A stretch of 64,000 nucleotides of DNA. Source: an alpha proteobacterium U9-1i. Its GTDB lineage: Bacteria; Pseudomonadota; Alphaproteobacteria; Caulobacterales; Aquidulcibacteraceae. Each line of letters opens with the position of its first letter. The stretch's first letter is position 1. The stretch lies in contig BBSY01000002.1 of the NCBI GenBank assembly GCA_000974665.1, positions 744,001 through 808,000 of the forward strand. The letters run 5' to 3'. Both the position numbers and the translations under genes were made by a program. Shown here one piece after another: positions 5,475-54,366 of this stretch. The notes under the pieces are model-generated. The model worked only from the letters and a program-made list of their open reading frames with translations, was not told the DNA's origin and searched no databases.

Positions 5475-6000
5475 CACACCTCCTCCTCGATGGAGGAGGT
5501 GGCCGCGAAGCGGCCGGAGGAGGTGCGCGCGCTACGGTTAAGGACGAGCCTCGTTCGGCTAAGCCCGAAACGTCGCGGGCCTCACCTCCTCAGTCAGTTC
5601 GCTCCGCTCACTGACAGCTCCTCCATCGAGGAGGAGCGGGTGACGTCGTGCGAGGAGCGCGCGCTGGATTCGTGTGTCGATGATGCCGAACGACTAGAGC
5701 ACCACACCTCCTCCTCGATGGAGGAGGTGGCCGCGAAGCAGCCGGAGGAGGTGCGCGTGCTTGCGGCGAAGGGCGAGCCTCTGGAGGCTCATCGTCAACG
5801 ATCGCGGGCCTCACCTCCTCAGTCAGTTCGCTCCGCTCACTGACAGCTCCTCCATCGAGGAGGAGCGGGTGACGCCGTGCGAGGAGCGCGCGCTGGATTC
5901 GTGTGTCGATGATGCCGAACGACTAGAGCGCCACACCTCCTCCTCGATGGAGGAGGTGGCCGCGAAGCGGCCGGAGGAGGTGCGCGTGCTTGCGGCGAAG
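5475..6000. repeat. Tandem array of a 228-bp palindrome-rich repeat (2.3 copies)
   Basis: Two full units (5475-5702 and 5703-5931, periods 228 and 229 bp) and a partial third (5932-6000) are nearly identical. Each unit starts with a hairpin (CACCTCCTCC around TCGAT), then GGCCGCgaaGCGGCC. It ends with a GTCAG/CTGAC hairpin and CTCCTCCATCGAGGAGGAG, which is the reverse complement of a stretch in the unit's opening hairpin. The copies differ mostly in a 50-bp middle section. Open frames across this stretch are translations of the repeat. It lies immediately downstream of gyrB. Confidence 0.9.
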
Positions 6001-6008
6001 TCGAGTCC

Positions 6009-6101
6009 GCGCTGCAGTAGGTCGCTCGTGACGCCGAGATACAGCGTGCCATTGGGCTGGCTCGCAACGAGGTAGACGGCAATCAGATCGTATCGCGCCA
6101 T
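6009..6101 (-). pseudogene. Truncated GIY-YIG endonuclease gene (N-terminal 31 codons)
   Basis: Read on the minus strand from an ATG at 6101, the first 31 codons give MARYDLIAVYLVASQPNGTL followed by YLGVTSDLLQR. This is the start of the small GIY-YIG nuclease domain (the GIY motif as AVYLVA, the YIG motif as LYLGVTSDL). The catalytic Arg helix, the Glu-bearing segment and everything after are missing. The frame runs straight into the third copy of the 228-bp repeat. The gene therefore looks broken by, or fused to, the repeat array. It is too short to be an active nuclease. Confidence 0.72.
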
Positions 6102-6200: not shown

Positions 6201-6323
6201 AGGGAAGGTGGCCTCGCGATAGCTCCCAGCGAAAGCGAACGACGTGATTGTGGAGCGTGGAGAAAATAGGGGGATAGGTCCCTGCTAATCCGACCGAGTG
6301 CGTTTGGCCTTAAACTCGTGTGC

Positions 6324-7826
6324 ATGAGCACAGAGAACGAGACACCCAGGCGCGTCATCACCAAGCGCCGGCATCACAGCGAAGAGGTGTGGGCGCAGGC
6401 GCGGCGGGATTATTTGGCTGGTTTTACAGCAACAATCGTCGCGCAGCGTTACGACATGACCGTCGATGCGATCCGCAAGCGCGCATCGAAGCAGGGTTGG
6501 TGCAAGGCCCATCAACTCGCCGATGCGCCGCCGCCGCTGCATCCTTACCCGGGGATAGAGGAGGTCGAATCCCCGGGATTGAACGCGGTCAGCGCGTGGC
6601 GAAAAATCGCCCATCCAGCGCAAGTGCCGCCCGCCGAACCATGGTCGACGTGGCTGTTCCAGGGCGGGCGGGGCGCCGGCAAAACGCGCGCCGGCGCCGA
6701 ATGGCTCGCAGATTTGGCCGAGAAGAAACAAGGCCTGTTCGCGCTGGTTGGGCCAACGCAGCATGACGTACGCGAAGTGATGATCGATGGCCCTTCGGGG
6801 CTGCGCAATCTGCCGGGGCGGGCGCGGCCTTGGTACGAACGTTCGCGGCGACGTTTGCTGTGGCCGAATGGATCGGTCGCCTACGCATTCTCGGCGGAGG
6901 AGCCGGAGCGTTTGCGCGGTCCGCAATTCGAAGCCGCGTGGGCGGATGAGTTTTGCATCTGGCCGAAGCCGAGCGAGACTTTGGCGATCCTGCGCATGGG
7001 CTTGCGGCGCGGCGACAATCCGCTGCTCGTCGTCACCACAACGCCGAAGCCAATTGCCGCTTTGCGCGCGTTGCGCGCGGAGCCGAGCTGCGTCGTCACG
7101 CAGGCAGCGACGGCGACGAACGCCGCGCATCTTGCGCCGTCGTTTCTCGAAGGGCTCGATTTGCTCTATGGCGGCACGCGATTGGCGGCGCAGGAGCTGG
7201 ACGGATTGCTGCTTGAGGGCGATGGGGCGTTGTGGCGCGCGCAGGACGTCGCGGCGGCGCATGGGCCGATGCCCGCGATGCTGGATCGCGTTGTCGTTGG
7301 AGTCGATCCGCCAGCGGGCGCCAATGGCGCGGCTTGCGGAATTGTCGTCGCCGGCCGGCGTGAGGCGCGCGCCTTTGTGCTCGCGGATCGTTCGGCCCTG
7401 GGCTTAAGCCCGCTGGGCTGGGCAAGTCGTGTGGCCGAAGTCGCGCGTGAGTTTGGCGCGGCGGAAATTATCGCTGAGGCCAATCAAGGCGGCGATATGG
7501 TGCGCGCCACATTGGCGGCGGCGGGCGCTCCGTGCGCGGTGCGGCTGGTGCATGCGAGCCGCGGCAAGCGCGCACGGGCGGAGCCGATCGCGGCGCTCTA
7601 CGAACAGGGGCGCGTGACGCATTGCGGCGCGTTCGTCGCGCTTGAAGAGGAGCTGATGGCGATGGGCGCGAGCGAAGCGTCGCTCTTGGATCGCGCGGAT
7701 GCTTTGGTATGGGCGCTGACGGCCTTGATGTCCGGCTCGGTGCGCGAAGGGCCGCGCGTGCGAAGCTTGCACGAGGGCGGCGAAAGGTGGCGCGGTTTGT
7801 CGATGCCGGCGCCCGCGCACGCCTAG
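6324..7826 (+). CDS. Orphan GTA/phage-type large terminase (TerL) with N-terminal HTH
   Basis: Residues from about 100 onward match the TerL of RcGTA-like gene transfer agents. They have a Walker A GGRGAGKTRAGAEW, VGPTQHDVREVM, FSAEEPERLRGPQFEAAW with a Walker B-type WADE, and the ATPase coupling stretch VVTTTPKP. The nuclease half has VVGVDPPAG, a central IAEANQGGD and a late Asp in LLDRADALVWAL, so both activities look intact. Ahead of it, residues 20-60 form a helix-turn-helix (ATIVAQRYDMTVDAIRKRA) like that of a small terminase or DNA-binding regulator. No portal, protease or capsid gene follows; the next gene is convergent. An in-frame GTG at 6318 is an alternative start; neither start has a strong ribosome site. 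Confidence 0.87.
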   Translation: MSTENETPRRVITKRRHHSEEVWAQARRDYLAGFTATIVAQRYDMTVDAIRKRASKQGWCKAHQLADAPPPLHPYPGIEEVESPGLNAVSAWRKIAHPAQVPPAEPWSTWLFQGGRGAGKTRAGAEWLADLAEKKQGLFALVGPTQHDVREVMIDGPSGLRNLPGRARPWYERSRRRLLWPNGSVAYAFSAEEPERLRGPQFEAAWADEFCIWPKPSETLAILRMGLRRGDNPLLVVTTTPKPIAALRALRAEPSCVVTQAATATNAAHLAPSFLEGLDLLYGGTRLAAQELDGLLLEGDGALWRAQDVAAAHGPMPAMLDRVVVGVDPPAGANGAACGIVVAGRREARAFVLADRSALGLSPLGWASRVAEVAREFGAAEIIAEANQGGDMVRATLAAAGAPCAVRLVHASRGKRARAEPIAALYEQGRVTHCGAFVALEEELMAMGASEASLLDRADALVWALTALMSGSVREGPRVRSLHEGGERWRGLSMPAPAHA

Positions 7827-8353
7827 TGCGGGGCGTCCAATGCTGCGCGCGCGCGTGGTTCGGTGATGCGATCGACGCGGAGCGCGTTCAGCACTGTCGA
7901 CTGCCGCGGCCGATCGCCGTCGACGTAAACCACGAACTGATCGCCAACGCCGCCTTGGAGCGCATCAAAAGCCGGCAGCGGCCCGCAGCTCGTCATCTCG
8001 GTGTAGGTCAGCGTAAAGTTGCGGGTGCGGCCTTGCCCTTTCAGCCAGCGCACCGGCCGCAACGTCACGGTCGGCGTCGCGCCTAAACCGTCGCGTTCTT
8101 TCGTCCGCACGCGCTCGATCCGCGCTACGAGCACTGTTCGCGCCTGGTCCCACATCCGCTGCTGCCGGGCGAGATCCCACGCCGCGTCCTGCGCCGCTTG
8201 GTCGGCGTACCATTGCGCCACACGTTGGGCGTGCGCCTCGGCGCTCTCGCCAGTCTCCTGCGGTGGCGGCGGCATCGGCATGCAGGCCAAGGCTTCGCTG
8301 GAAAGAAGGGTTGCGGCGAGCAATGCGCCGATCGCGGTGATGGTTCGCTTCAT
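7823..8353 (-). CDS. Secreted protein of unknown function, 176 aa
   Basis: The protein begins with a cleavable-looking signal peptide (MKRTITAIGALLAATLLSSEALA) and then a Cys/Pro-rich start of the mature chain (CMPMPPPP). A glutamine-rich helical region of about 60 residues follows, and then a beta-rich C-terminal half (VRWLKGQGRTRNFTLTYTEM, VGDQFVVYVDG). I place the start at the ATG at 8353 because upstream codons overlap the TauE-like gene in an unlikely frame. It converges with the terminase gene (4-bp overlap of stops). No family recognised; periplasmic location is inferred. Confidence 0.7.
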   Translation of the reverse strand: MKRTITAIGALLAATLLSSEALACMPMPPPPQETGESAEAHAQRVAQWYADQAAQDAAWDLARQQRMWDQARTVLVARIERVRTKERDGLGATPTVTLRPVRWLKGQGRTRNFTLTYTEMTSCGPLPAFDALQGGVGDQFVVYVDGDRPRQSTVLNALRVDRITEPRARAALDAPH

Positions 8354-43829: not shown

Positions 43830-43894
43830 GCCTCGCGCTAGCCGATTTCCAGGTCATCCTACAGCCGTTGAAACTCAAGCGCGTAAGAACGCAC

Positions 43895-43911
43895 TGGCGA
43901 CCCCGGAGAGA
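43895..43911. repeat. attL: copy of the tRNA-Arg 3' end
   Basis: The 17 bases TGGCGACCCCGGAGAGA repeat exactly at 54350-54366, where they form the 3' end (minus strand) of an intact tRNA-Arg. No other tRNA sequence surrounds this copy, so it marks the distal junction left by site-specific integration. Confidence 0.9.
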
Positions 43912-43941
43912 ACATCACTACCAAGCGCAATCAAACGCTTA

Positions 43942-43953
43942 GGGTGACTAACC
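43942..43953 (+). repeat. Arm-type repeat 1 (left end)
   Basis: GGGTGACTAACC recurs in identical form at 43994-44005; its core GTGACTAACC also occurs near the right end. Position just inside attL fits an integrase or excisionase arm-binding site. Confidence 0.65.
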
Positions 43954-43993
43954 TGTGTCCGTACTCCCATCGGTTTTCAAGGCATTCCAAGCG

Positions 43994-44005
43994 GGGTGAC
44001 TAACC
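43994..44005 (+). repeat. Arm-type repeat 2 (left end), inside an inverted repeat
   Basis: Identical to the copy at 43942. It is flanked by perfect inverted arms GGCATTCC (43981-43988) and GGAATGCC (44007-44014), and by AGCGGGG/CCCCGCT. The site could therefore also be presented on a hairpin or serve as an operator for the left-end genes. Confidence 0.65.
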
Positions 44006-44047
44006 GGGAATGCCCCGCTCGTTCGCGACTCACGGTAGGTTGGCTTC

Positions 44048-44287
44048 ATGAGCATTGAACAGATTGTGGCCCACGTGAAAGCAGGCGACGACGAGGCGCG
44101 GTCCCTTGAGGATCGGCTCGCCAGTTACGAGTCTGCTCAAGCCGTGGCGAAGGAAGCTGGCGTGATAACCGTCGTCGAATTTTTTCCAGAATCCCAGCCG
44201 CCGCTGAAGTTCGATTTCCTCCAAGAGCGTATCGACAAGCTAAAACTGCTGATTGACCTCGCCAATTGGGGGAAAGAGCGGCCCTAA
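44048..44287 (+). CDS. Small unknown protein of the element, 79 aa
   Basis: A 79-residue, mostly helical, acidic protein (IVAHVKAGDDEARSLEDRLA, VITVVEFFPESQPP). No signal peptide, membrane segment or known motif. It is the first gene inside the left end and is followed after 31 bp by another unknown gene in the same direction, so it probably opens the left-end operon. Confidence 0.6.
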   Translation: MSIEQIVAHVKAGDDEARSLEDRLASYESAQAVAKEAGVITVVEFFPESQPPLKFDFLQERIDKLKLLIDLANWGKERP

Positions 44288-44318
44288 AAACGGCAAGTAA
44301 ATTGCTTAGCGTTGGTCC

Positions 44319-44885
44319 ATGACCGAAACGCCGGCCAAACAACTCGCGCGGCTACAGCGAAGCCTGTTGCGCCACCCAAGTCTCGAAGCGGTGCTAGGCG
44401 GCTCGCCGCTTGAGGTGGTGGCCGCGCGCAATGTCATTCCAGCACTTGTATTCCATCTAAGTCCGGCTGCCGGGGGCGGGGCACCATGCGAGCCGGAGAC
44501 CACAACGTTTTACAAAGCCGCTGCGCTTTATGTCCGCTCCGATGGCGGCGTGAGCGATATCGATTTGCTTCGCGCCGCTAACGACACGTTGCCGGACAAA
44601 GCCTCCAAAAAACCAGCCAAGCTTCGTGAGCGCTTCAAGCGCGGCAAAGATGCTACCGAGCAGGAATCAGCGTTCGCGTGGATCGTCAGCCAGCAAGCGG
44701 CGAAAGAATACCTCGGGTCGTTGCTAAGGACCGTATCAGACATCGAAACGCGCGAACGTGACGTGACGAAACGCGAGATGGTCGTAGCCGAAAAGGATGC
44801 TGACGCTACGCGCAAGCTGGAGAGGGCCCGCGAGATATTCAGCGAAACAGTGTTGCGGCGAAGCGCGCCCCCAACCACCCCCTAA
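44319..44885 (+). CDS. Unknown helical protein of the element, 188 aa
   Basis: The N-terminal half is mixed alpha/beta (KQLARLQRSLLRHPSLEAVL, IPALVFHLSPAAGGG). The C-terminal 70 residues are strongly charged and helical (RTVSDIETRERDVTKREMVV onward), a probable coiled coil. No family is recognised. It lies in the left-end operon upstream of the RepA-like ATPase; a role in replication or regulation of the element is only a guess. Confidence 0.62.
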   Translation: MTETPAKQLARLQRSLLRHPSLEAVLGGSPLEVVAARNVIPALVFHLSPAAGGGAPCEPETTTFYKAAALYVRSDGGVSDIDLLRAANDTLPDKASKKPAKLRERFKRGKDATEQESAFAWIVSQQAAKEYLGSLLRTVSDIETRERDVTKREMVVAEKDADATRKLERAREIFSETVLRRSAPPTTP

Positions 44886-44946
44886 CTCTCGCTTCGTTCG
44901 GCATTGATCTGTAAGCCAAACAGCCCGGCGTTGTTATTGTCGGTGC

Positions 44947-45147
44947 ATGTCGAACCCGCTCGCGCCATACTTCGAACGCACACCAACGTCCGGCGACCTT
45001 GAGGCTGTGGCAAACGACGAATTGGAACGCATCATCGCTTCCGCTCGCGATGTGGAGGCGTTGGGTGACGCGGACCTGACCGAAACGCGGACTTGGGCAA
45101 CGGCGGTGCGTGTTGCGGCGGAAGCAGCATTGGCCGCGCGAACATGA
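44947..45147 (+). CDS. Small unknown protein of the element, 66 aa
   Basis: A 66-residue acidic helical protein (DLEAVANDELERIIASARDV). Its stop overlaps the following ATG (ATGA), so the two are probably co-translated. No motif recognised. Confidence 0.55.
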   Translation: MSNPLAPYFERTPTSGDLEAVANDELERIIASARDVEALGDADLTETRTWATAVRVAAEAALAART

Positions 45148-45356
45148 GGCGCTTCCAAGTAACGTACGCCGACAGTCGTGTTGAGGTGATTGAAGCGGAC
45201 GGTTGTTGGCCCAACGATTGGGGCGCGGCGTTCGTGTACGAAACGCAACGCCAGTCAAAGTCACCTACCGCGAAGCCCGGTGATATCAAGTCCACGTTTC
45301 ACACGTTCCGTTTCATCGCCGGCCGGTTGATAGCCGAAGTGCGCGAGATCGCGTGA
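45144..45356 (+). CDS. Small unknown protein of the element, 70 aa
   Basis: A 70-residue beta-rich protein (MRRFQVTYADSRVEVIEADG, THTFRF-like TFHTFRFIAGRLIAEV). It starts by a 4-bp overlap with the upstream gene and its stop overlaps the GTG of the RepA-like ATPase. It thus sits in a tightly coupled set of three. No family recognised. Confidence 0.6.
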   Translation: MRRFQVTYADSRVEVIEADGCWPNDWGAAFVYETQRQSKSPTAKPGDIKSTFHTFRFIAGRLIAEVREIA

Positions 45357-46375
45357 CTGTCCCGTCACTGCCGACGTTCGCCACAGCCGAGGAAATGGCG
45401 ACGCAAGTTCGTAAGGCCGACTATCTGATTGGGTCAGTGCTTGAGCGTGGCGTCTTTGCGATGCTGTTCGGTGAGCCCGGAACGGGCAAGAGCTTCTTGG
45501 CGCTCGATTGGTCATGCTCAATTGCGAGCGGTCGCGATTGGCTCGGGCGGCCGACACAGCAAGGGACGGTGATCTATATCGCGGGTGAAGGTCTCGCCGG
45601 CCTTGGCCGCCGTGTGAAGGCTTGGGCTCAACACCACAGTGTGCCGGTCGGCCACATTCGATTGTACGTTTCCAAGTACGGCGAGAACTTTCTAGACGCC
45701 GAAGAAATGGAGGCGTTGCGCGAGACAATGCGGCAGGCGCCACGACCCATATTGCTTGTTGTGGTCGATACGATGGCGCGTGCAACGCCCAACATGAATG
45801 AGGATCGGGCGAACGAAGTCGGCGTGTTCGTGGCCGCCTGTGACGAACTTCGCGACGAGTTCGGTTGCGCGGTGCTCGTGATCCACCACAGCCCCCACAA
45901 GGACAAAGGCCGGGCAAAAGGCAGCATCGCGCTCAAAGGCGCGGTCGATTTTGAGGCGGGGCTAAAGCACACGTCCAAACCCGGCGTAATCCGGTTCGCA
46001 TGTAGCAAGATGAAGGATGGAGAGCCGTTTGCGCCAATGCACCTACGCCTTGAGTCCGTGGAAATGTCGGCCGGCGGCGCGACCGTCTCAAGCGCCGTTC
46101 TGACAGAATGCGACGCACCGGCCGAGACGGCCCGTCAGGAACGCGCGTTCAAACCCACGGCCAATGACAAGCTGTTGATGCTGGCGCTTGGGCTTGAGCG
46201 ACAGGCAGAGACGGCCGTGCGGGCGGCGTTCATGGCGGGTCATCCCACAGGCCAAGGCGACGCTGCCAAAAACTACCTGAGAGCGCGAAACCGCGCGTTA
46301 CGGCGCGGGTGGTTCGTTGTGCAGGGCGACGCGCTGCTACCCGCCACAGAGGCGATAATGCGCGACCGAGAATAA
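45353..46375 (+). CDS. RepA-like hexameric helicase/AAA ATPase
   Basis: The 340-residue protein is a RecA-fold ATPase of the RepA/KaiC-like type. Walker A is MLFGEPGTGKSFLALDW, a beta strand leads to IYIAGEGLAGLGRRV, Walker B is ILLVVVDTMARATPNMNE, and VLVIHHSPHKDKGRAKGS carries the sensor-like His-His pair. A C-terminal winged-helix-like segment (DKLLMLALGLERQAETAVRA) follows. Such proteins are plasmid and satellite replicative helicases. It starts at a GTG coupled to the upstream gene. No separate primase was recognised, so replication would rely on host or helper primase. Confidence 0.8.
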   Translation: MTVPSLPTFATAEEMATQVRKADYLIGSVLERGVFAMLFGEPGTGKSFLALDWSCSIASGRDWLGRPTQQGTVIYIAGEGLAGLGRRVKAWAQHHSVPVGHIRLYVSKYGENFLDAEEMEALRETMRQAPRPILLVVVDTMARATPNMNEDRANEVGVFVAACDELRDEFGCAVLVIHHSPHKDKGRAKGSIALKGAVDFEAGLKHTSKPGVIRFACSKMKDGEPFAPMHLRLESVEMSAGGATVSSAVLTECDAPAETARQERAFKPTANDKLLMLALGLERQAETAVRAAFMAGHPTGQGDAAKNYLRARNRALRRGWFVVQGDALLPATEAIMRDRE

Positions 46376-46452
46376 GGACATTGGGCGATTGTCCGTCATG
46401 TTTCACGGGCTCTTTCAGCTAACCCGGCAAACTCCCCGGTCCGGACAGACAG

Positions 46453-46485
46453 GACACGACCCCCACGTAGTGGGGGCGTAGTGTC
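46453..46485. repeat. Long hairpin downstream of repA-like gene
   Basis: CCCCCAC (46460-46466), loop GTA, GTGGGGG (46470-46476), extended by GACAC (46453-46457) and GTGTC (46481-46485) across small bulges. There is no T run. It lies between the 3' ends of two convergent operons, so it could terminate both. Alternatively it could be a replication-origin or packaging signal. A second small dyad GGACA/TGTCC is at 46376-46394. Confidence 0.7.
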
Positions 46486-46527
46486 ATGTCGCGTACGGCC
46501 TAGCCCGAGATTGAATGTGTTGTGGTT

Positions 46528-47205
46528 CTAATTCGGCGGCGTGTCCGGCGTCGCCCCGGCCGTGCCCGCGCTTTGGCTACACAGCGCGGCCAAGTAGGTC
46601 GGGTTGGAGAGGCCGGCGTTCACACCATAAACGAACAGGCCGACCGACACTGTTGCCAGTGCCACGGCGAGGGCTTGTAAGGCGCTGGCTTGCGCATACT
46701 TCGTCTCGTTCACTGCAAACCGCTGCTCGATGTGGGCTAGCTTTTTGTCCATCTCATCGGATTCAGCGTCTACGCTATCCAATTCCGTCATGAAGCGGGT
46801 AACCTGCGAGATGTCGTTTGCAGCCGTGGCGCTGTGAACTTCAGCCTTCAATTCGGCAAATCGCCGCCGATGCGGTTCGACGCGCTCTCTTATCTCTGCC
46901 GCTTGGCGTTGATTGTGGGCATCCTCGCGAAGTGCTCCGGCGGTCACATCGGCCGCTACCATCCCCACAACGTGCGCTCCAAATGCCAGCGCGACCCCCA
47001 AAGAGAACGTCCAAACGAGCGGGCGGAATGCTTCCCAACCGCAGATTTTGCCATCAATGACACCGTTCAAGCAAAAGAGAACGGCAGCGGCGTTCGCCAC
47101 CAAAATCCAAACGGTCAGCCGTGTGCCCGCTTGATTAGCCAACGAGCGAAACTCGCTGGCCTCGCGCTCTGAGTGATCTGACTTCTGTTGGAGCGTATTC
47201 GCCAT
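46528..47205 (-). CDS. Membrane/coiled-coil protein of the TIR cargo operon
   Basis: The 225-residue protein has two N-terminal membrane helices (LTVWILVANAAAVLFCLNGV and LVWTFSLGVALAFGAHVVGM). A long charged helical region of about 90 residues (RERVEPHRRRFAELKAEVHS onward) is probably a coiled coil. A third membrane helix (LQALAVALATVSVGLFVYGV) and a short tail follow. No family recognised. It is the last gene of the minus-strand operon headed by the TIR gene and 21 bp after the zinc-finger gene. The topology would suit a membrane effector or sensor, which is inference. Confidence 0.7.
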   Translation of the reverse strand: MANTLQQKSDHSEREASEFRSLANQAGTRLTVWILVANAAAVLFCLNGVIDGKICGWEAFRPLVWTFSLGVALAFGAHVVGMVAADVTAGALREDAHNQRQAAEIRERVEPHRRRFAELKAEVHSATAANDISQVTRFMTELDSVDAESDEMDKKLAHIEQRFAVNETKYAQASALQALAVALATVSVGLFVYGVNAGLSNPTYLAALCSQSAGTAGATPDTPPN

Positions 47206-47226
47206 TGCTGAGCGCTTCCCGTCGAT

Positions 47227-47457
47227 CTAGTACACCTTCTTCTTCCCCAATCCGCCGCAAGAGCTGCAAGTAATATTTCGGACGCGGCTTTCAGAGCCGG
47301 TACCGTGGCAGTGATTGCACTGGACAAGGGCGAATGGCCGCGCAGATTCCGGCGCCGTTCGCATTGGGTGGCCGCAATGCGGGCACGCAAAGGCTTCTGA
47401 GCTAACCTTTCCAGTACAGACGGGGCATTTAAGCAGGAACGCCAACCACACCTCCAT
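47227..47457 (-). CDS. Zinc-ribbon plus DnaJ-type zinc-finger mini-protein
   Basis: The 76-residue product has eight cysteines in four CxxC pairs. CPVC ... CPHC (residues 11-28) forms a zinc ribbon, and CNHCHGTG ... CSSCGGLG forms a DnaJ-type CxxCxGxG zinc module. It has no J domain. It lies 14 bp after the four-helix membrane protein gene in the TIR operon. A role in binding a protein or nucleic acid partner of the cassette is plausible but unproven. Confidence 0.7.
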   Translation of the reverse strand: MEVWLAFLLKCPVCTGKVSSEAFACPHCGHPMRTAPESARPFALVQCNHCHGTGSESRVRNITCSSCGGLGKKKVY

Positions 47458-47471
47458 CGCATCGAACGCTT

Positions 47472-48077
47472 CTAGGCACGCTGCTTACGCTTCTTGCGCA
47501 AGTGAATCATGTCCACGTAGCGAAGTGTCGTCCACACAAACAGGGCATACACTCCGATATCGATTGCGAGGGAGATTGACAGCGCGCTTCGCTGAAACTC
47601 CAGCGCGATCCGGATCGTCGGAAGCAGAAACAACAGGAACGGCACTGCCGTTTGATAGAGGAAGGCAAGCCATGACTGAAATTTGGGATAATCTGCGAGA
47701 TACGCTTTGCCTTCGCGCGTCACGAACTCCCGCCCCAAAACTTCGTTCAATCGTGCCTCCACATCGTGAAGGTACGGGTACAGGCGCTCCACGTAAGCGG
47801 CGGCCTGGAAGTAGCGCACCGTGAACAGAAGCAGCGCAATCCAAATAACATTGCCTATCAATCCGAGATCGATCGGATCATCAACGCCGATTTGGCGTGC
47901 AAGAATTGAACTGAATAGCTGCTCTGCTGGAGTCGGAAAGAAAATTTCAAACGCAAAAAGCGCCAGCACACCAAGCGCCCACAGCATCAATCGATCACGC
48001 CGACGAGACACGTCGCCGATTAAAGCGCACGTATCTTTGTAGTGGTCGTAAAGCGTTGGAAGAACGTCCACTGTCAC
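47472..48077 (-). CDS. Four-helix membrane protein coupled to TIR protein (candidate effector)
   Basis: The 201-residue protein has two N-terminal membrane helices (RLMLWALGVLALFAFEIFF; LIGNVIWIALLLFTVRYFQ). A soluble segment of about 40 residues (YLHDVEARLNEVLGREFVTR) comes next, then two more helices (LYQTAVPFLLFLLPTIRIAL; LAIDIGVYALFVWTTLRYV) and a very basic tail (RKKRKQRA). Its ATG overlaps the TIR gene's TGA (ATGA), so the two are made together. Known type II Thoeris effectors pair membrane helices with a macro domain; no room for one exists here. A membrane-disrupting effector role is inferred. Confidence 0.75.
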   Translation of the reverse strand: MTVDVLPTLYDHYKDTCALIGDVSRRRDRLMLWALGVLALFAFEIFFPTPAEQLFSSILARQIGVDDPIDLGLIGNVIWIALLLFTVRYFQAAAYVERLYPYLHDVEARLNEVLGREFVTREGKAYLADYPKFQSWLAFLYQTAVPFLLFLLPTIRIALEFQRSALSISLAIDIGVYALFVWTTLRYVDMIHLRKKRKQRA

Positions 48078-48511
48078 CGGCGAATAGCGGGGCGCGCCAA
48101 GCCCAATCCGCTGATGATTCCCATTTCGGTAAATCCGTTCACTGGAGTGTAGTTCGCATGTCGCAATTCTTCGGGCAGTTCGTATGAGCGATCCAAGATG
48201 ACAGCCACAATACGGTTACCGTCATCAATGCTGCGCGCGACTTCGAAATTGATCCAGTTCTTGTAACCAATGAGCGACGCGTTTCGGTGTCGCTCGTTTG
48301 CGTGCCGTCCCACGACGACCAGCGTGTGTGTCGCGGCCTGAACCTTCATTGTCAGAGCGGCTTTGATGCGCCCGACATTGTAGCTGTCGATCTCATCCGG
48401 TGTGCCGTCATCAAACGTGAAATCAAAGCTCGTGTTCGCGTCCCACGCTTCGAGCAAATGCTTGTATCGGCGGTCGTGATGCCAATCGAAGCTAACAAAT
48501 ACGGTTGCCAT
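48074..48511 (-). CDS. ThsB-like TIR-domain protein (PF08937 type)
   Basis: The 145-residue protein is a stand-alone TIR-like domain resembling ThsB of Thoeris. It has strand A VFVSFDWHHDRR, helix NVGRIKAALTMKVQAATHT, strand LVVVGRHA and the key WINFEVARSIDDGNRIVAVI. The Glu at residue 90 occupies the position of the ThsB catalytic Glu (WVRYEIMKSI in Bacillus cereus ThsB, from memory). In Thoeris, ThsB senses phage and makes an ADP-ribose-derived signal from NAD. It is first in a four-gene operon. No SIR2/SLOG or macro-domain ThsA is present in the element, so signal receiver and effector remain open. Confidence 0.82.
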   Translation of the reverse strand: MATVFVSFDWHHDRRYKHLLEAWDANTSFDFTFDDGTPDEIDSYNVGRIKAALTMKVQAATHTLVVVGRHANERHRNASLIGYKNWINFEVARSIDDGNRIVAVILDRSYELPEELRHANYTPVNGFTEMGIISGLGLARPAIRR

Positions 48512-48696
48512 CGGTCTTACACCTCGCTGTCAGTGAGCGCGGCGTAACATGATTCGGTCCGACAACTACACGCACGCGGTGGTCAAGAATCCATGGCGCG
48601 AGCGTTGTCGTTTTCGCCGTAAGTGTGGCCGCGCGGACTCGCGAAAGTTCAGGGGGTCGAAACTCCGAAACCGCCGCCCCAGCCCAAAAATCCCAC
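48512..48696. other. Divergent intergenic region, TIR operon / capsid module
   Basis: These 185 bp separate the minus-strand TIR operon from the plus-strand zinc-finger/capsid genes and should hold both promoters. I see no strong -35/-10 pair or palindrome that I would defend. A short open frame across it has no recognisable product. Confidence 0.4.
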
Positions 48697-49059
48697 ATGC
48701 AGAACATTACCAGAACAAAATTTGGCAGCTATGCCTTATTTGGGAGGTCGCAGGTATTGGGCTACGTCGCGCGCGTCCCCGACAAGTTCGGTCAGTTGGC
48801 CCTAAATCATGCCCTGTTCTTCGGGTGCGAGGCGTGCTCGCGCGGCGTGTTGATGGAACGGCCCGAGTGCATCCGGCGCTGGGGTGAGGAAGGCTCTGTG
48901 GCGGCCGTAGCGCGTCGCTTCAAGTGTTCCAACTGTTCGGCGAAGCGTCGTGGCCGCAAGCCCGCCGTGACCGTTGAAGTCGTCCGCCAGTATCGCACCG
49001 CATCGGAACTGGCGCGCGGTGAAATCGGCAATCCGAACGCGCCGGCCAATGACCCCTAA
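48697..49059 (+). CDS. Small zinc-finger protein upstream of the capsid gene
   Basis: The 120-residue product has two CxxC pairs separated by about 33 residues: FGCEACSRGV and FKCSNCSAKRRGRKP, with a helical segment between (CIRRWGEEGSVAAVARR). The C-terminal part is basic then charged. Similar short Cys4 proteins are common in alphaproteobacterial phage regions, but no function is assigned. I start at the ATG at 48697; an upstream ATG at 48625 is possible. It probably shares a transcript with the capsid gene. Confidence 0.62.
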   Translation: MQNITRTKFGSYALFGRSQVLGYVARVPDKFGQLALNHALFFGCEACSRGVLMERPECIRRWGEEGSVAAVARRFKCSNCSAKRRGRKPAVTVEVVRQYRTASELARGEIGNPNAPANDP

Positions 49060-49176
49060 CCACCCCCGAACCCCACTGCCGACTTGCGGCTAGTTGCTGA
49101 CGCCGCCGACTGCCTGTGAATATTGGGAACCCTGCACGCCGCTCAATTCCGAGCGGCGCCAACCCAGGGCAACCCA

Positions 49177-50355
49177 GTGAACAAGTCTCAAATCATCGCG
49201 GCGATGGAAGCCATCGTCACCCGCGCCGAAAACGAAAACCGCGACATGACCGATGCGGAGATCGCCGAGTTCGACAAACTCAAGGCGCAACTCGCCACCG
49301 CCGACGCAAACGAATCGAGACGGGCCGGACTGGCCGCGCTTCGCCAAGCGTCCGGCGTTTCCGAACGTCTCGACCGGTTCGCTCTCAACTCGACGGACCG
49401 TCTCGCCGCGCTCGCGCAGTTCGCCCGCCCGAACGGCAACACCACACGTGCGGGCGACTTGATCCGCGCGAACCTCGGCATGGGCGCTTACGATATTGGC
49501 GCGTCGCAGTCCCGTGGCTCCGGTCCCGGCGGCGGCTTCACCGTGCCGTCGTTTCTGTCCGCCGAGATCATCGACGCGGCGCGCGCCAAATCCCGCGTGA
49601 TTACGGCGGGCGCGCGAACCATTCCGGTGAGCGGCGATACGTCCTTTGCGACGATTGACGACGACCCGACGTTTGCCAACCACGCCGAGAACGCGACCAT
49701 TGACGAAAGTGAGATCGTTTTCGGCTCGCGCAACTTCGCACCACAAACCAAAGTCTGTTTGATCCGAGCCAGCGTTGAGCTTGTGGAAGATTCGCCGACG
49801 TTCAATGACACCGTGGACGCTGTGCTTGCCGCCGCGTTCGCTGTGGAAATGGACCGACTCGCGCTGAATGGCTCGGGCATCGGCGAACAACTCGGCGTGC
49901 TCGCAACCGACGGCGTCCATGAAATCAGTGGCGCCGGACTGAACACTTGGGCGCCGTTCGCTCGCGCGTATCAAGCCGTGCGTTCGTCCAACCACACGCC
50001 GGGCGCGTTCATCCTCTCGCCGGGCGCCATGGGCGCAATCGACAATCTAGTTGAAGGGGGAGGCAGCAACAATCCGTTGCGACGTCCGCCGTCGCTGGAA
50101 GCCACGCAATTTCTCGACACCACGTCGATTGAGGATGAAGGCTCGCCAATCGGAACGCAGGCAGTGACCGGCGAGTGGCAATTGCTTTTTTTAGCGATTC
50201 GCAGTGGCTTGACCATCGAAGCATCGCGCGTTGGCGGTGACGCCTTTAACAAGCTGAGCGTGCTCATTCGCGCCTACGCGCGTCTCGACTCGTTCGTCGT
50301 GCGCAAAGCGGCATTCGCCAAAGTCACCGGCATTCCGGTTCCGGCCATCGGCTAA
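49177..50355 (+). CDS. HK97-type phage major capsid protein
   Basis: The 392-residue protein begins with a helical scaffold-like delta region (about residues 1-85: AAMEAIVTRAENENRDMTDA and so on). The HK97 core follows: GGGFTVPSFLSAEIIDAARA, PVSGDTSFATIDDDPTFANH, a long P-domain helix EMDRLALNGSG and GIPVPAIG at the end. It assembles icosahedral shells. No prohead protease gene was found, so maturation would need another protease or none. The GTG start at 49177 lacks a strong ribosome site; a later ATG at 49204 is possible. The capsid gene precedes the portal gene, the reverse of the usual order. Confidence 0.88.
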   Translation: MNKSQIIAAMEAIVTRAENENRDMTDAEIAEFDKLKAQLATADANESRRAGLAALRQASGVSERLDRFALNSTDRLAALAQFARPNGNTTRAGDLIRANLGMGAYDIGASQSRGSGPGGGFTVPSFLSAEIIDAARAKSRVITAGARTIPVSGDTSFATIDDDPTFANHAENATIDESEIVFGSRNFAPQTKVCLIRASVELVEDSPTFNDTVDAVLAAAFAVEMDRLALNGSGIGEQLGVLATDGVHEISGAGLNTWAPFARAYQAVRSSNHTPGAFILSPGAMGAIDNLVEGGGSNNPLRRPPSLEATQFLDTTSIEDEGSPIGTQAVTGEWQLLFLAIRSGLTIEASRVGGDAFNKLSVLIRAYARLDSFVVRKAAFAKVTGIPVPAIG

Positions 50356-50369
50356 TCGGAGCGCCAGCT

Positions 50370-51626
50370 ATGTCAACGAGCCGCCGGCTTCCCTGGGGCC
50401 AGCGCTTGCGGGCCGCCGCGTCCATCCTCACGGGTGGCGCGGTAGCCGCCGGGCGCTTCGGTCCGTTCGTTTCAAGCCGCGATTGGAACAACCGCTTCAC
50501 GGCGGCCGACGATCCGGCGGTTACATCCGACACCGCGTTGCAGGTTTCGACCGTGTACGCGTGCGTGAACATCTTGTCCGACACCGTCGCACAATTGCCC
50601 GTCGGCGTGTTCAAGAAAGAAGGCGAGCGGCGCGTACCGCAACCCGACCACCCGGTGTCTCGATTGCTCGCGGGCAACGTCAACGACTACACGGGACGGC
50701 GCGGCTTGGTCCGCACCGGCGAAACCAGCCGGCAATTGCGCGGTAATGGATACGTACAGATTGAACGCGACAACGGCGCGCCCGTTGGGCTGTGGCCGCT
50801 CAACGCCGACGCCACCGCGCCACGACGCACCGAAGGCGGTCGGCTGATTTATCAAACGAGCGTTGCCGGTGAGACACAGACACTTGAGCCCACCGACATT
50901 CTGCACGTGCGAGGCCTGAGTCTCGACGGCCTTGTGGGCGTGTCGCCTATTGATGCTGCGCGCCACGCAATCGCGCTCGCGATGTACACGGAAAGTTTCG
51001 GCTCGAAATTCTTCAAGAATGATGGCCGCTCGGGCGGCTACATTCTGCAATCGGCCGAGACGAACGCGCGGTCGAAAAAAGAACGGCAAGATAGCCTGTC
51101 TAGCGGCGGGAGCGAGGGTCAGGGCGGTCACGCAAACGCGCACAAGCCGAAGATTCTCGATCCGGGGGCCAAGTACATTCCGGTGACCATCGCGCCGGAA
51201 GAAGCGCAATTCTTGCAAACGCGCGGCTTTCAAGTCGAAGAAGTGGCGCGCCTCTATCGCGTTCCCTTGGTCCTTATCGGCCACCTTGAGAAAACGAGTT
51301 CGTGGGGTACGGGCGTTGAGCAACTCATGATCGGGTTTGCTCAGTGGACTATCGCGCCACTTGCGATGGATTGGGAGCAAGAGCTAACCGCAAAGCTTCT
51401 GAGCGAGGAAGAACGCGCGCAAGGCTACTATTGTAGAATGGACATGCGAGGCATCATGCGTGGTGCGAGCGCCGACCGCGCCGCATTCTACGCATCGGCC
51501 ATTCAAAACAATTGGATGCTGCCAGCAGAGGTGCGCGCGAGAGAAGAGCTTGACCCTCTGCCCGATGGCGACGCGCCTGTGAGACCACAGACGGCACAGC
51601 CAACAAATGACAACGGTGTGTCATGA
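50370..51626 (+). CDS. HK97-type phage portal protein
   Basis: The 418-residue protein shows the HK97 portal family pattern: LQVSTVYACVNILSDTVAQL, PVGVFKKEG, LRGNGYVQIERDNGAPVGLW, SPIDAARHAIALAMYTESFG and the late VARLYRVPLVLIGHLEKTSS then FAQWTIAPLAMDWEQEL. Portals form the dodecameric DNA gate at one capsid vertex and dock the terminase. No terminase is encoded in the element. It lies 14 bp after the capsid gene and overlaps the next gene by 4 bp. Confidence 0.92.
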   Translation: MSTSRRLPWGQRLRAAASILTGGAVAAGRFGPFVSSRDWNNRFTAADDPAVTSDTALQVSTVYACVNILSDTVAQLPVGVFKKEGERRVPQPDHPVSRLLAGNVNDYTGRRGLVRTGETSRQLRGNGYVQIERDNGAPVGLWPLNADATAPRRTEGGRLIYQTSVAGETQTLEPTDILHVRGLSLDGLVGVSPIDAARHAIALAMYTESFGSKFFKNDGRSGGYILQSAETNARSKKERQDSLSSGGSEGQGGHANAHKPKILDPGAKYIPVTIAPEEAQFLQTRGFQVEEVARLYRVPLVLIGHLEKTSSWGTGVEQLMIGFAQWTIAPLAMDWEQELTAKLLSEEERAQGYYCRMDMRGIMRGASADRAAFYASAIQNNWMLPAEVRAREELDPLPDGDAPVRPQTAQPTNDNGVS

Positions 51627-51859
51627 CCGCGCGTCTTGCTCACTTCGCCGTCCGCCTGTTCGTCGCGCGACAACGGCGTGCCATAAGTGTCCGGCTCACG
51701 CGCTTGGCGCTGTGGTCGTACCTCGCGCTCGGTAAGTACATCTCGCGCCGTATCGAGCACATACCGCTGAGCGACCTCGGATGGCTGCACCGCGAGGGTC
51801 GCTTGATGCGACGCGAAGCGGATGAAGCCCACAGATCACGACGCGCGGGTGACGCATGA
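51623..51859 (+). CDS. Small unknown basic protein of the element, 78 aa
   Basis: A 78-residue Arg-rich protein with a possible amphipathic or membrane-associated helix (LTRLALWSYLALGKYISRRI). ATGA overlaps couple it to the portal gene upstream and the next gene downstream. No family recognised; position suggests a head-completion or packaging accessory role, which is a guess. Confidence 0.55.
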   Translation: MTARLAHFAVRLFVARQRRAISVRLTRLALWSYLALGKYISRRIEHIPLSDLGWLHREGRLMRREADEAHRSRRAGDA

Positions 51860-52077
51860 CCGATGCGATGCCCTTACCCACGCTCGCGCAATTGGATGAC
51901 GACACGCAAACGAAGCTTGTCATGTCAGGCGCACGCGCGTTGTCGCGACTTGCTGCCGGCGAAGCAATCGAAACGCTGAGCGACCAAGAAATGGTTGGCT
52001 TGGTCGCGCTTCGCGAGGCGGAGATGACAGCGTTCGTCACCGAGCTACAGCGACGGCGATTGCGCATGAACAATTGA
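51856..52077 (+). CDS. Small unknown acidic protein of the element, 73 aa
   Basis: A 73-residue helical protein (LDDDTQTKLVMSGARALSRL, LREAEMTAFVTELQRRRLRM). ATGA overlap with the previous gene and TTGA overlap with the next. No motif recognised. Confidence 0.55.
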   Translation: MTDAMPLPTLAQLDDDTQTKLVMSGARALSRLAAGEAIETLSDQEMVGLVALREAEMTAFVTELQRRRLRMNN

Positions 52078-52418
52078 GGATTCCGCCGAGCGGGCCTTTG
52101 CGTCAGCGGGCGTGCGAGCAACCGGACGATACACAAGGCGGCGCTGCCTTACCCGCGCTCGGCGGGGTACGCATTACGCGGGCGAAGCGTCGTCAACTCG
52201 CGCAACTCAATCACGACGGCATGAGCAGCAATCGGATACACTATGAGAACGGAAAGCCGACGGGTGACGAAGCACAAGCGCGCACACGCCCGTGTCTCAC
52301 CTGTGGCGTTTCGTTCGACTCCGCACACTTCGGCAACCGACTCTGCGACGCGTGCCGTGCGGTGAATCTCGGGATGGTTGAGGCGGGTAGCCCCGGCGGA
52401 AGAAAGGAACGGAGGTGA
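52074..52418 (+). CDS. Small Cys4 zinc-finger protein of the element
   Basis: The product has RPCLTCGVSFDSAHFGNRLC followed by DACR, a compact four-Cys zinc knuckle common in phage-associated small proteins. The frame begins at a TTG overlapping the upstream stop; an ATG at 52221 would retain the whole finger and may be the true start. Its stop overlaps the GTG of the excisionase-like gene. It may bind DNA near the integration module. Confidence 0.6.
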   Translation: MRIPPSGPLRQRACEQPDDTQGGAALPALGGVRITRAKRRQLAQLNHDGMSSNRIHYENGKPTGDEAQARTRPCLTCGVSFDSAHFGNRLCDACRAVNLGMVEAGSPGGRKERR

Positions 52419-52642
52419 GCCGGCAGCTTCCTTTTGATTGCCCGCGCGGGCTCAATCGCGTCGAGGCGGCGCGCTACGTCGGTGTGAGTCCAAACACGCT
52501 CGATAAGCTCATTCTGGAAGGCCGGATGCCCCGCGCCAAGCGCATAGGGACGCGGCGCATTTTCGACCGTCAGGCGTTAGACGTTGCGTTTTCCGCGCTA
52601 GGGGAGGATGGCCACGAAGCAAACGACTTTGACGGGGCCTAA
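52415..52642 (+). CDS. Excisionase/AlpA-like MerR-type HTH protein
   Basis: The 75-residue protein has a winged-helix DNA-binding motif typical of excisionase-family proteins: LNRVEAARYVGVSPNTLDKL, ILEGRMPRAKRIGTRRIFDR, QALDVAF. Such proteins act as recombination directionality factors or as AlpA-type activators of integrase genes. It begins at a GTG overlapping the previous stop and directly precedes the integrase gene, as expected for a paired int/xis module. Confidence 0.85.
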   Translation: MSRQLPFDCPRGLNRVEAARYVGVSPNTLDKLILEGRMPRAKRIGTRRIFDRQALDVAFSALGEDGHEANDFDGA

Positions 52643-52643
52643 T

Positions 52644-53756
52644 ATGGCGACGGTTCGCCTAGCCTATGTTCTGGCGTACAGAGATCGGCACGGAAAGCAA
52701 CGGCACTACTATCGCCGCGCAGGCCGTCGCATTCCGCTTCCCGGCCGTCCAGGCGAGGCGGAGTTTATGAGCGCGTACGAAACGGCCGCCGCGATGTTTT
52801 CAGGAATCGAGCCGTTGCGCTCGCCTGATCCCTCGCCCGGCACATTCGACGCGCTGGCGGTGACCTACTATCGATCACCAAACTTCCTCGGTTTGAAACC
52901 GAGCACGCAAACGACTTATCGCCGCGAGATTGACCGGTGGCGCGAGGATCACGGCGCCAAGCGTGTCGTACATCTCCAAAGGCAGCACATTCGGGAGCAG
53001 ATGGCCGCGCGCTACTACGGCTTGTCACTCGCCGACTACAAAGACCTAGTGGCGAAACGACAAACTCCGAAGTTCGATCCCGAGAACGAGACAGGCGGGC
53101 CAGAGGCGGCGAACAATCTTCTAAAAGTGGTTCGCGTGTTGTGCGCCTTCGCTGTGGACGATGACCCAGCATGGCGTCGAGACAATCCGGCCCTGGGCAT
53201 CAAGAAGTTTAAGACCAGCGGCGATGGTTTCGTGCCGTGGTCTGAAAACGACATTGCGAAGTATCTGAAACGATGGGGGGCGGGAACGCGGCAGCGCCTC
53301 GCCTTGCTTCTGTTGTTGTACACCGGGCAGCGGCGAAGCGACGTAATTCAAATGGGCCGCCAGCATCGCAGCGGCGCCACGTTGCGCGTCAAACAATCGA
53401 AGACTAGCGCGCAGTTGGTCATTCCGTTGCACCCCGACCTTAAGGCAGTGCTGGGCACGCTTCCCAAAGATGGCCTTGCGTACCTGACCACGCAGTACGG
53501 CAAGCCGTTCAAGGATGGCGCGTCATTCGGCAATCAATTCTCAGAATGGTGCAGAACGGCTGGCTTGCAAGACCGAAGCGCTCACGGTCTGCGAAAGTCG
53601 GCCACGATCCGCTTGGTTGAAGCGGGCTGCACGACGAAGCAAGTCGCCGCGATCACAGGTCACGCTTCGTTGCGCGAAATCGAGCGATACGCGAAAGCCG
53701 CCGAGCAGGAGAAGTTGGCGCGGCAGGCTATCGCGAGGCTCATTCGCAACGGCTGA
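52644..53756 (+). CDS. int: Tyrosine-type site-specific integrase
   Basis: The 370-residue recombinase has an N-terminal arm-binding and SAM-like core-binding region (LKPSTQTTYRREIDRWREDH). The catalytic domain carries Arg in YTGQRRSDVIQM, HxxR in AHGLRKSATIRL, His in AITGHASLREIE and the Tyr nucleophile in EIERYAKAAEQ. All catalytic residues are present. I start at the ATG at 52644, one base after the HTH gene's stop; an ATG at 52608 is possible but has its ribosome site too close. It lies about 600 bp from the tRNA-Arg target and is the probable enzyme for the 17-bp crossover. Confidence 0.93.
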   Translation: MATVRLAYVLAYRDRHGKQRHYYRRAGRRIPLPGRPGEAEFMSAYETAAAMFSGIEPLRSPDPSPGTFDALAVTYYRSPNFLGLKPSTQTTYRREIDRWREDHGAKRVVHLQRQHIREQMAARYYGLSLADYKDLVAKRQTPKFDPENETGGPEAANNLLKVVRVLCAFAVDDDPAWRRDNPALGIKKFKTSGDGFVPWSENDIAKYLKRWGAGTRQRLALLLLLYTGQRRSDVIQMGRQHRSGATLRVKQSKTSAQLVIPLHPDLKAVLGTLPKDGLAYLTTQYGKPFKDGASFGNQFSEWCRTAGLQDRSAHGLRKSATIRLVEAGCTTKQVAAITGHASLREIERYAKAAEQEKLARQAIARLIRNG

Positions 53757-53793
53757 GGTCGTGCTATGTGTCACCGATGAATAGGGGGAGCGC

Positions 53794-54267
53794 ATGGCGC
53801 AACGATGGAGTGTATGGAAGGCCGCGCTGTTTGGGTGCATTCCCGCCGGCTATCTAGTGTTTCGGCATTTCACAGGTGATGTGGCTCGTTCGTATGAGCC
53901 GCAGACGCTCGGCGGTGAGGTCGGTTATTGGCTTGGCTACGCTGGCATATGGCCGCTGGCGTTCGTCGTGGTCGCGCTGATACGAAACGCATTCGTGCCT
54001 AAGCGCGACACGCCGGAGCGAAAGCCAACCGCACTTCGCAACTTCATTTGGCCGGTGAGCTTGAAAGCAGAGCCGAGCGGCGTTGCGCGTTTTGGCCGTG
54101 TTCTTCACTGGCTGTTCGCGTTGATGGCACTCGCGTTTGTGGTTGGTGGTGCGTACACGTTGCTTGTTGCCAGTGACGCCGGCCTTGGTTTGGGGCTAAT
54201 CGCGTTCGGCGGTGGCGGCTGTCTTTTGATCGGACGCGGCCTTCGATACATATTTTCGGGTGAGTAG
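53794..54267 (+). CDS. Membrane protein of unknown function at the right end of the element
   Basis: The 157-residue product has three or four hydrophobic stretches (VWKAALFGCIPAGYLVF, YWLGYAGIWPLAFVVVALI, WLFALMALAFVVGGAYTLLV, LGLGLIAFGGGGCLLIG). No family recognised. It lies between the integrase and attR. Terminal genes of such elements often carry cargo such as superinfection exclusion, but nothing in the sequence shows that here. Confidence 0.68.
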   Translation: MAQRWSVWKAALFGCIPAGYLVFRHFTGDVARSYEPQTLGGEVGYWLGYAGIWPLAFVVVALIRNAFVPKRDTPERKPTALRNFIWPVSLKAEPSGVARFGRVLHWLFALMALAFVVGGAYTLLVASDAGLGLGLIAFGGGGCLLIGRGLRYIFSGE

Positions 54268-54286
54268 CACGGTTCGCGAACAGGCA

Positions 54287-54296
54287 GTGACTAACC
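54287..54296 (+). repeat. Arm-type repeat 3 (right end)
   Basis: GTGACTAACC, the core of the two left-end repeats, in the same orientation. TTCGCGAA occurs on both sides (54273-54280 and 54297 onward), hinting at an organised recombination site. Confidence 0.65.
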
Positions 54297-54308
54297 TTCG
54301 CGAACCGA

Positions 54309-54318
54309 GTGACTACCC
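54309..54318 (+). repeat. Arm-type repeat 4 (right end, one mismatch)
   Basis: GTGACTACCC differs at one base from GTGACTAACC and lies 22 bp after repeat 3, 31 bp before attR. The spacing of repeats fits binding sites for the integrase N-terminal domain. Confidence 0.5.
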
Positions 54319-54349
54319 TCGTTGAAACCAAAGCAGTTTCTAGTAGCAG

Positions 54350-54366
54350 TGGCGACCCCGGAGAGA
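54350..54366. repeat. attR: 3' end of tRNA-Arg
   Basis: Same 17 bases as at 43895-43911. Here they complete a full tRNA gene, so the element restores the tRNA 3' end on integration. Confidence 0.9.

Follow-up and report, generated by a model that had tools for sequence, protein, structure and literature searches.

The window, the whole 64,000-nucleotide stretch analysed (positions 744001–808000 of one contig of a 4.05-Mb genome), carries on its plus strand an open reading frame of 500 codons from its ATG (6324–7826). By open reading frame calling, Pfam searches, AlphaFold2 modelling and fold matching, it was assigned as a large terminase (TerL) of the gene transfer agent (GTA) type with a helix-turn-helix (HTH) fused to its N-terminus. 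We call this solitary gene the orphan. It lies between gyrB, upstream, and a convergent tauE-rhodanese-arsR-MBL block, downstream. The initial annotation had seen no portal or capsid genes after it, and indeed no portal, capsid or other structural phage gene adjoins it at this locus. Between gyrB and the orphan, positions 5490–6101 contain repeated segments rich in GAGGAGG/CCTCCTC and a minus-strand ORF fragment whose translation resembles the beginning of a GIY-YIG-type protein.

Domains and catalytic residues

The TerL body matched Terminase_6N (2e-28) and Terminase_6C (6e-24) in Pfam. The ATPase domain (6642–7247, plus strand; Terminase_6N at residues 112–308 plus a lead-in) contains a Walker A motif, GGRGAGKT, at residues 114–121 and a Walker B motif at D208-E209, and it is followed by the RNase H-like nuclease domain (residues 325–466; 7296–7721, plus strand), which corresponds to Terminase_6C. 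Both parts expected of a large terminase, an ASCE ATPase with Walker A and B and an RNase H-like nuclease, were thus found. Among 49 homologues, D208 and E209, T240, D328, E385 and D456/D459 were invariant, as were the Walker A residues except A118 and T121, which were nearly so. These catalytic positions were invariant or nearly invariant in orphan and GTA TerLs alike, in agreement with the GTA-type body with ATPase and nuclease residues that had been read from the letters.

The AlphaFold2 model, built with 49 aligned homologues, had a mean pLDDT of 87.7, with 83–91 in the HTH block. Its nearest solved folds were the large terminases of D6E, Sf6, T4 and HK97; a search of the PDB by sequence gave no match for the orphan. 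The HTH, annotated at first at residues 20–60, was modelled as three helices (residues 20–31, 36–42 and 47–56), identical when the N-terminus was modelled alone, and we place it at residues 20–56 (6381–6491, plus strand). Residues 16–64 had weak PHROG matches to a terminase small subunit (E = 0.013) and to a DNA-binding family (E = 0.02); the HTH had no match in Pfam and, taken alone, no significant fold match in the PDB. Residues 57–90 form a linker with one short helix, with low confidence at 62–67.

An N-terminal HTH, as found here, is typical of phage-type small terminases (TerS) such as those of Sf6 and T4-like phages, where it also stands at the N-terminus of the packaging enzyme. In contrast to these, the orphan carries its HTH on the TerL chain, and in the model neither a TerS coiled-coil oligomerisation core nor a C-terminal TerL-binding segment was evident in its short linker. 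The role that we propose for the orphan N-terminus, bringing DNA to TerL, is similar to that of RcGTA g1 (Sherlock et al. 2019, PMC6854486), but g1 lacks an HTH whereas the orphan has one, fused to TerL. The lack of an HTH in the RcGTA small terminase has been put forward as one explanation for packaging at random (PMC6854486; PMC7947584).

Relation to GTA terminases and persistence of the orphan

A search of the rest of the genome for GTA genes and another TerL, suggested at the outset, found a complete RcGTA-like cluster. It contains g1, TerL, portal, protease, capsid and tail genes to g15, with g1 and g2 intact, and its TerL (C3:99460) is the only other Terminase_6 gene of the genome. The orphan is about 50% identical to this TerL and about 45–66% identical to GTA TerLs (RcGTA-like g2), and on sequence grounds it is a predicted second motor of this genome, in addition to the small and large terminase that the cluster encodes. 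It is like RcGTA-like g2 (Caulobacter gtaT, CCNA_02880) in its Terminase_6N/6C domains, its catalytic residues and, in the window genus, a GTA-type promoter; it is unlike g2 in lying off-cluster, with no portal downstream, in its extra N-terminal HTH and in belonging to a clade apart from its own genome's g2. By family, we would therefore classify it as a TerL of the RcGTA-like group whose location and architecture depart from the usual definition of g2, a gene in a GTA structural cluster with the portal next. The off-cluster position makes it less probable that the orphan is g2, not that it works like g2.

Our main phylogeny (IQ-TREE) comprised 78 TerLs, 28 of them solitary. All 28 formed one clade (support 99/94), which was present in all bootstrap trees. 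Its members, mostly HTH-bearing, came from the window genus, a sister genus, a second family and Brevundimonas, that is, from three families of Caulobacterales. The clade was sister to the GTA-cluster TerLs of Caulobacter and Brevundimonas (Caulobacteraceae), so that the orphan branches with GTA-cluster TerLs and not with phages. The TerL of its own genome's cluster fell on the opposite side of the tree; the orphan is therefore not a copy of it. A larger quick tree (138 rows) again separated orphans from cluster TerLs but did not settle how the orphan subclades branch at depth, so the single origin of the orphans rests on the 78-TerL tree. A class-wide sample of 385 genomes gave no match of comparable level outside the order. 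The initial annotation had suggested a displaced GTA packaging motor, to be abandoned if the genome had, elsewhere, an entire GTA cluster including a terminase and this gene carried inactivating changes. Such a cluster exists but the orphan has no inactivating changes. "Displaced" does not hold literally for this genome, whose cluster is complete with an intact terminase from a different TerL branch; the packaging-motor part of the suggestion gained from the promoter, the replacement of cluster TerLs (both below) and the intact catalytic residues.

The orphan was present in 14 of 60 family genomes, in two genera. In eight species, including that of the window, it lies downstream of gyrB and, where the flank was available, the tauE block is next in most; it likewise follows gyrB in the sister genus. 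In one subclade (G008, apparently also G016 and G002, judging from common neighbours), it stands beside housekeeping genes such as rpoH or ggt. These distributions bear on the possibility that the gene is the TerL of a defective, recent and unrelated prophage at the gyrB locus. TerL genes are phage-derived by origin and the presence of this one is patchy, as that explanation would expect. We nevertheless regard it as highly improbable: the locus has no other phage genes, the position by gyrB is vertical in two genera, and the clade holds only solitary chromosomal genes. Viral contigs added to the tree were placed with cluster-type TerLs, and no phage with portal and capsid was found whose TerL branches inside the orphan clade.

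Another possibility is that the orphan is a second terminase of little functional importance, left over recently in the evolution of GTAs and on its way to slow loss. Relics of it were seen in four genomes, as an HTH in G019 and G007, as the last 50 amino acids in G027, and in G009; the gyrB-tauE interval lacks it in G013 and G014, and it was not found in G006. On the other hand, its core had a median dN/dS of about 0.17, compared with 0.42 for the HTH plus linker (NG86, 55 pairs, with dS near saturation for some), the catalytic residues are invariant, and promoter and locus are conserved across about ten species. Elsewhere, an orphan is the sole TerL beside otherwise complete GTA clusters. 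Slow loss thus appears quite unlikely, and the core dN/dS together with the kept gyrB-tauE locus does not support the housekeeping relic that had been raised initially.

The GTA promoter and clusters without their own terminase

Comparison of upstream regions identified three plus-strand elements before the orphan: GGGGATAG (6270–6277), which is likewise kept ahead of GTA operons in the genus; AATCCGACCG (6287–6296), common to the GTA operon; and, 14 nt after the latter, a -10-like box, TAAACT (6311–6316), 8 nt before the ATG. The arrangement suggests a leaderless transcript. GTA operons of the genus have GGATAG...AATCCGACCG-14 nt-TANNNT upstream of g1, and an equal element with equal spacing was found just before the orphan in the window (6287–6316) and in G025, G011, G020, G003, G022 and G008. 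It has one mismatch in G002 and lies further upstream in G004 and G029. The strict pattern ATCCGACCG-N13-16-TANNNT had 27 matches on both strands (1.73 Mb summed) of about 0.86 Mb of family DNA, in stretches chosen around GTA operons and orphans, and 26 of the 27 stand in front of a GTA operon, an orphan TerL or an orphan relic. With a background taken from 495 kb of the window genome, a chance match is expected in about 1.5e-4 of 60-bp upstream stretches. In the window genus and the sister genus, the orphan carries the promoter element of the GTA operon and would be expressed together with that operon.

Four promoter sites were found in the 495 kb: those of the orphan and the GTA operon, and two that precede genes without known function. 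The GTA-type promoter is not exclusive, which counts against the GTA role proposed below. One of the two sites (L399:14902–15593) is before a 72-aa hydrophobic protein with a lipoprotein-like gene next, the other (L407:2112–2864, minus strand) before a 250-aa protein, both without family matches; they are possible further GTA genes.

In three other genomes, the orphan and a portal operon lacking TerL have a lineage-specific upstream stretch in common: CGCCGCAATCCGACCGGGTC in G157 (20 bp), AATCTATCCGACCGGTA in G209 (17 bp) and CGTGCAAGTTATCC in G241 (14 bp). Each exceeds the match with any of 25 other GTA promoters. Most Brevundimonas genomes, by contrast, had no visible promoter sharing, which is a further point against that role: upstream stretches were shared in few, mainly G102 (45 bp, 91%) and G851 (19 bp), a pattern derived from Brevundimonas portals stood before only 1 of 41 Brevundimonas orphans, and enriched k-mers in the upstream DNA were mostly at start codons.

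We mapped TerL and the GTA portal in 121 Brevundimonas genomes, setting aside portals near a contig start. A TerL was present elsewhere in all 21 GTA-portal genomes without a cluster TerL and in 17 of 66 with one (Fisher p 4e-10); in this survey, cluster TerL was lost only where another TerL exists. Only some of these "elsewhere" TerLs were placed in the tree, and those among them that came from TerL-less genomes do not group in the cluster-TerL clade. Of 14 TerL-less clusters inspected, 12 have retained portal, protease, capsid, connectors and tail genes over the length of sequence available; the remaining two (G346, G841) are decayed. On the portal tree, the cluster-TerL state changed about 8 times by parsimony, with at least 4 changes forced by well-supported branches. 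Because the losses are recurrent, shared ancestry alone is insufficient to explain the association. Orphan presence against portal presence in Brevundimonas had the expected direction (p 0.12).

Portals without a cluster TerL were also found in Hyphomonadaceae, in G002 of the window genus, G157 and G209 of the sister genus, and G241, G258, G363, G313 and G372 of another family, with the capsid kept in all except G372, a partial contig; these eight genomes had been picked for having an orphan and are not an unbiased sample. In a 61-genome sample not selected for orphans, an orphan accompanied 3 of 3 TerL-less clusters (G002, G042, G058) compared with 5 of 37 others (p 0.006). Short gaps before the portal suggest that g1 was lost together with TerL; our g1 query, from one Brevundimonas, was too divergent for tracing g1 in other genomes. 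In relatives whose cluster terminase genes are gone, the orphan would be the obvious supplier of the motor.

In the window genus, GTA clusters have decayed repeatedly by internal deletions that fuse an early gene, whether TerL, portal, protease or capsid, to the g15 end, at L077/L393 (G029), L082 (G020), L052 (G001), L073 (G010), L392 (G008) and L387 (G016). G022 has a second, divergent portal/protease/capsid cluster (L391, G022:C12), 26–31% identical to GTA proteins.

Exchange of the HTH head and proposed role

The orphans of G029 and G003 are 95% identical in the TerL core but 41% in the HTH. For the G029 HTH, the closest matches are the HTH of G241, from another family (59%), and the G009 relic. 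Some 2 kb upstream in G029, the old HTH persists with a frameshift, 91% like that of G003 over a short readable stretch. Tandem near-identical 73-bp units lie between this old HTH relic and the new HTH-TerL (contig C9 of G029, L041 about 7350–7930). Brevundimonas and other genera have one or two low-similarity HTHs ahead of the TerL body; in G042, a single HTH + TerS-like gene stands apart from TerL and stops immediately ahead of it, an arrangement seen only in some Brevundimonas. As the head has been swapped, its relic kept and the number of HTHs varies, the HTH behaves like an interchangeable part of an otherwise conserved motor.

Taken together, we consider it probable that the orphan is a second, trans-acting DNA-packaging motor for GTAs, encoded off-cluster, with a fused HTH head, and that it probably loads DNA into GTA particles from a distance. 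The promoter, the replacement of cluster terminases and the conserved catalytic residues give strong support to a motor of this kind with recognition and cutting on one chain, as first proposed, as far as genome comparison can tell. The GTA regulator would switch on the GTA operon and the orphan through their common promoter; the HTH, standing in for the DNA-binding domain of the small terminase, would bring the motor to DNA and may choose it; and the motor would dock on the portal that the GTA cluster supplies, where the TerL body, as ATP-driven translocase and headful nuclease, would fill the head and cut. In the window species, two motors would coexist, possibly with different DNA preference. 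Enteric PICI likewise redirect helper packaging (PMC6739421), using an apparatus that the element does not wholly encode; unlike them, the orphan is a chromosomal single gene, with no island, and a catalytic large subunit.

Several observations count against this role. Since the GTA cluster of this genome has intact g1 and g2, a second motor is not needed there. The orphan linker has no evident TerS oligomerisation domain. Across the window genus, having the orphan does not go together with having an intact GTA. Intact orphans occur with the portal missing or broken in G004, G008, G029 and Brevundimonas G254 and G299, where a search for the Pfam portal family gave no intact member, which argues against an exclusive GTA role. 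Gaps in MAGs could hide genes, although some of the key genomes consist of one contig or are almost complete. Orphans without an intact portal may have a further role, or the GTA loss may be recent.

The same persistence without a portal would fit a domesticated terminase whose targets are not GTAs but other mobile elements, such as phages and satellites, which it would counter or exploit. Its HTH would recognise foreign packaging sites, and its nuclease would cut them, or the motor would divert foreign heads to host DNA. Complete replacement of the G029 head on a nearly unchanged core, the higher dN/dS of HTH and linker than of the core, and the patchy loss with relics are also in line with this, as is a capsid+portal satellite without a terminase in the same genome. 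We find it rather unlikely, however. PADLOC models gave no match for the orphan, which lies among housekeeping genes and not in defence islands, has the GTA promoter and replaced the GTA terminase in many genomes, and the satellite's capsid is absent from all 60 relatives.

This satellite, missed in the initial annotation and unrelated to the orphan, is an integrated element of about 10.4 kb (43891–54366), about 43 kb downstream of the orphan. It is bounded by 21-bp near-identical direct repeats (43891–43911 and 54346–54366), the second at the 3′ end of a tRNA-Arg. It contains genes for a Thoeris ThsB-like TIR protein (48074–48511), an HK97 capsid (49177–50355), a portal (50370–51626), a tyrosine integrase (52608–53756) and a primase/helicase-like AAA protein, with small ORFs of head-tail size; no terminase was found within it. 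It looks like a capsid-forming phage satellite carrying a defence gene. Its capsid had one weak phage match and none in the 60 relatives. Owing to this absence from relatives, we rejected its capsid and portal as the general partner of the orphan motor.

If the orphan is a GTA motor, a wider generalisation can be put forward tentatively, with more doubt than confidence: GTAs of Caulobacterales would use interchangeable, HTH-headed, off-cluster motors for directed packaging, exchange of the HTH would alter what is transferred, and two motors would mean two cargoes. As RcGTA g1 has no HTH, a motor with an HTH head is predicted to make a non-random, or at least a different, choice of DNA, and these GTA-type motors provide a natural system in which to see whether packaging is random or directed. 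A GTA cluster without TerL may be functional, which changes how GTA clusters are judged. The family also points to terminase specificity evolving by head swapping. What is new here is a group of GTA-type motors with a built-in HTH, encoded off-cluster, with the GTA promoter in one family, that replace the cluster terminase in many genomes; in a limited literature collection, where absence is not proof of novelty, we found no paper describing such motors.

HTHs of the orphan type also occur in free-standing proteins (open frames of about 190–380 aa), several per Brevundimonas genome, and some of these carry repeated alpha-helical, TerS-like stretches (loci L085, L086, L090–L094).
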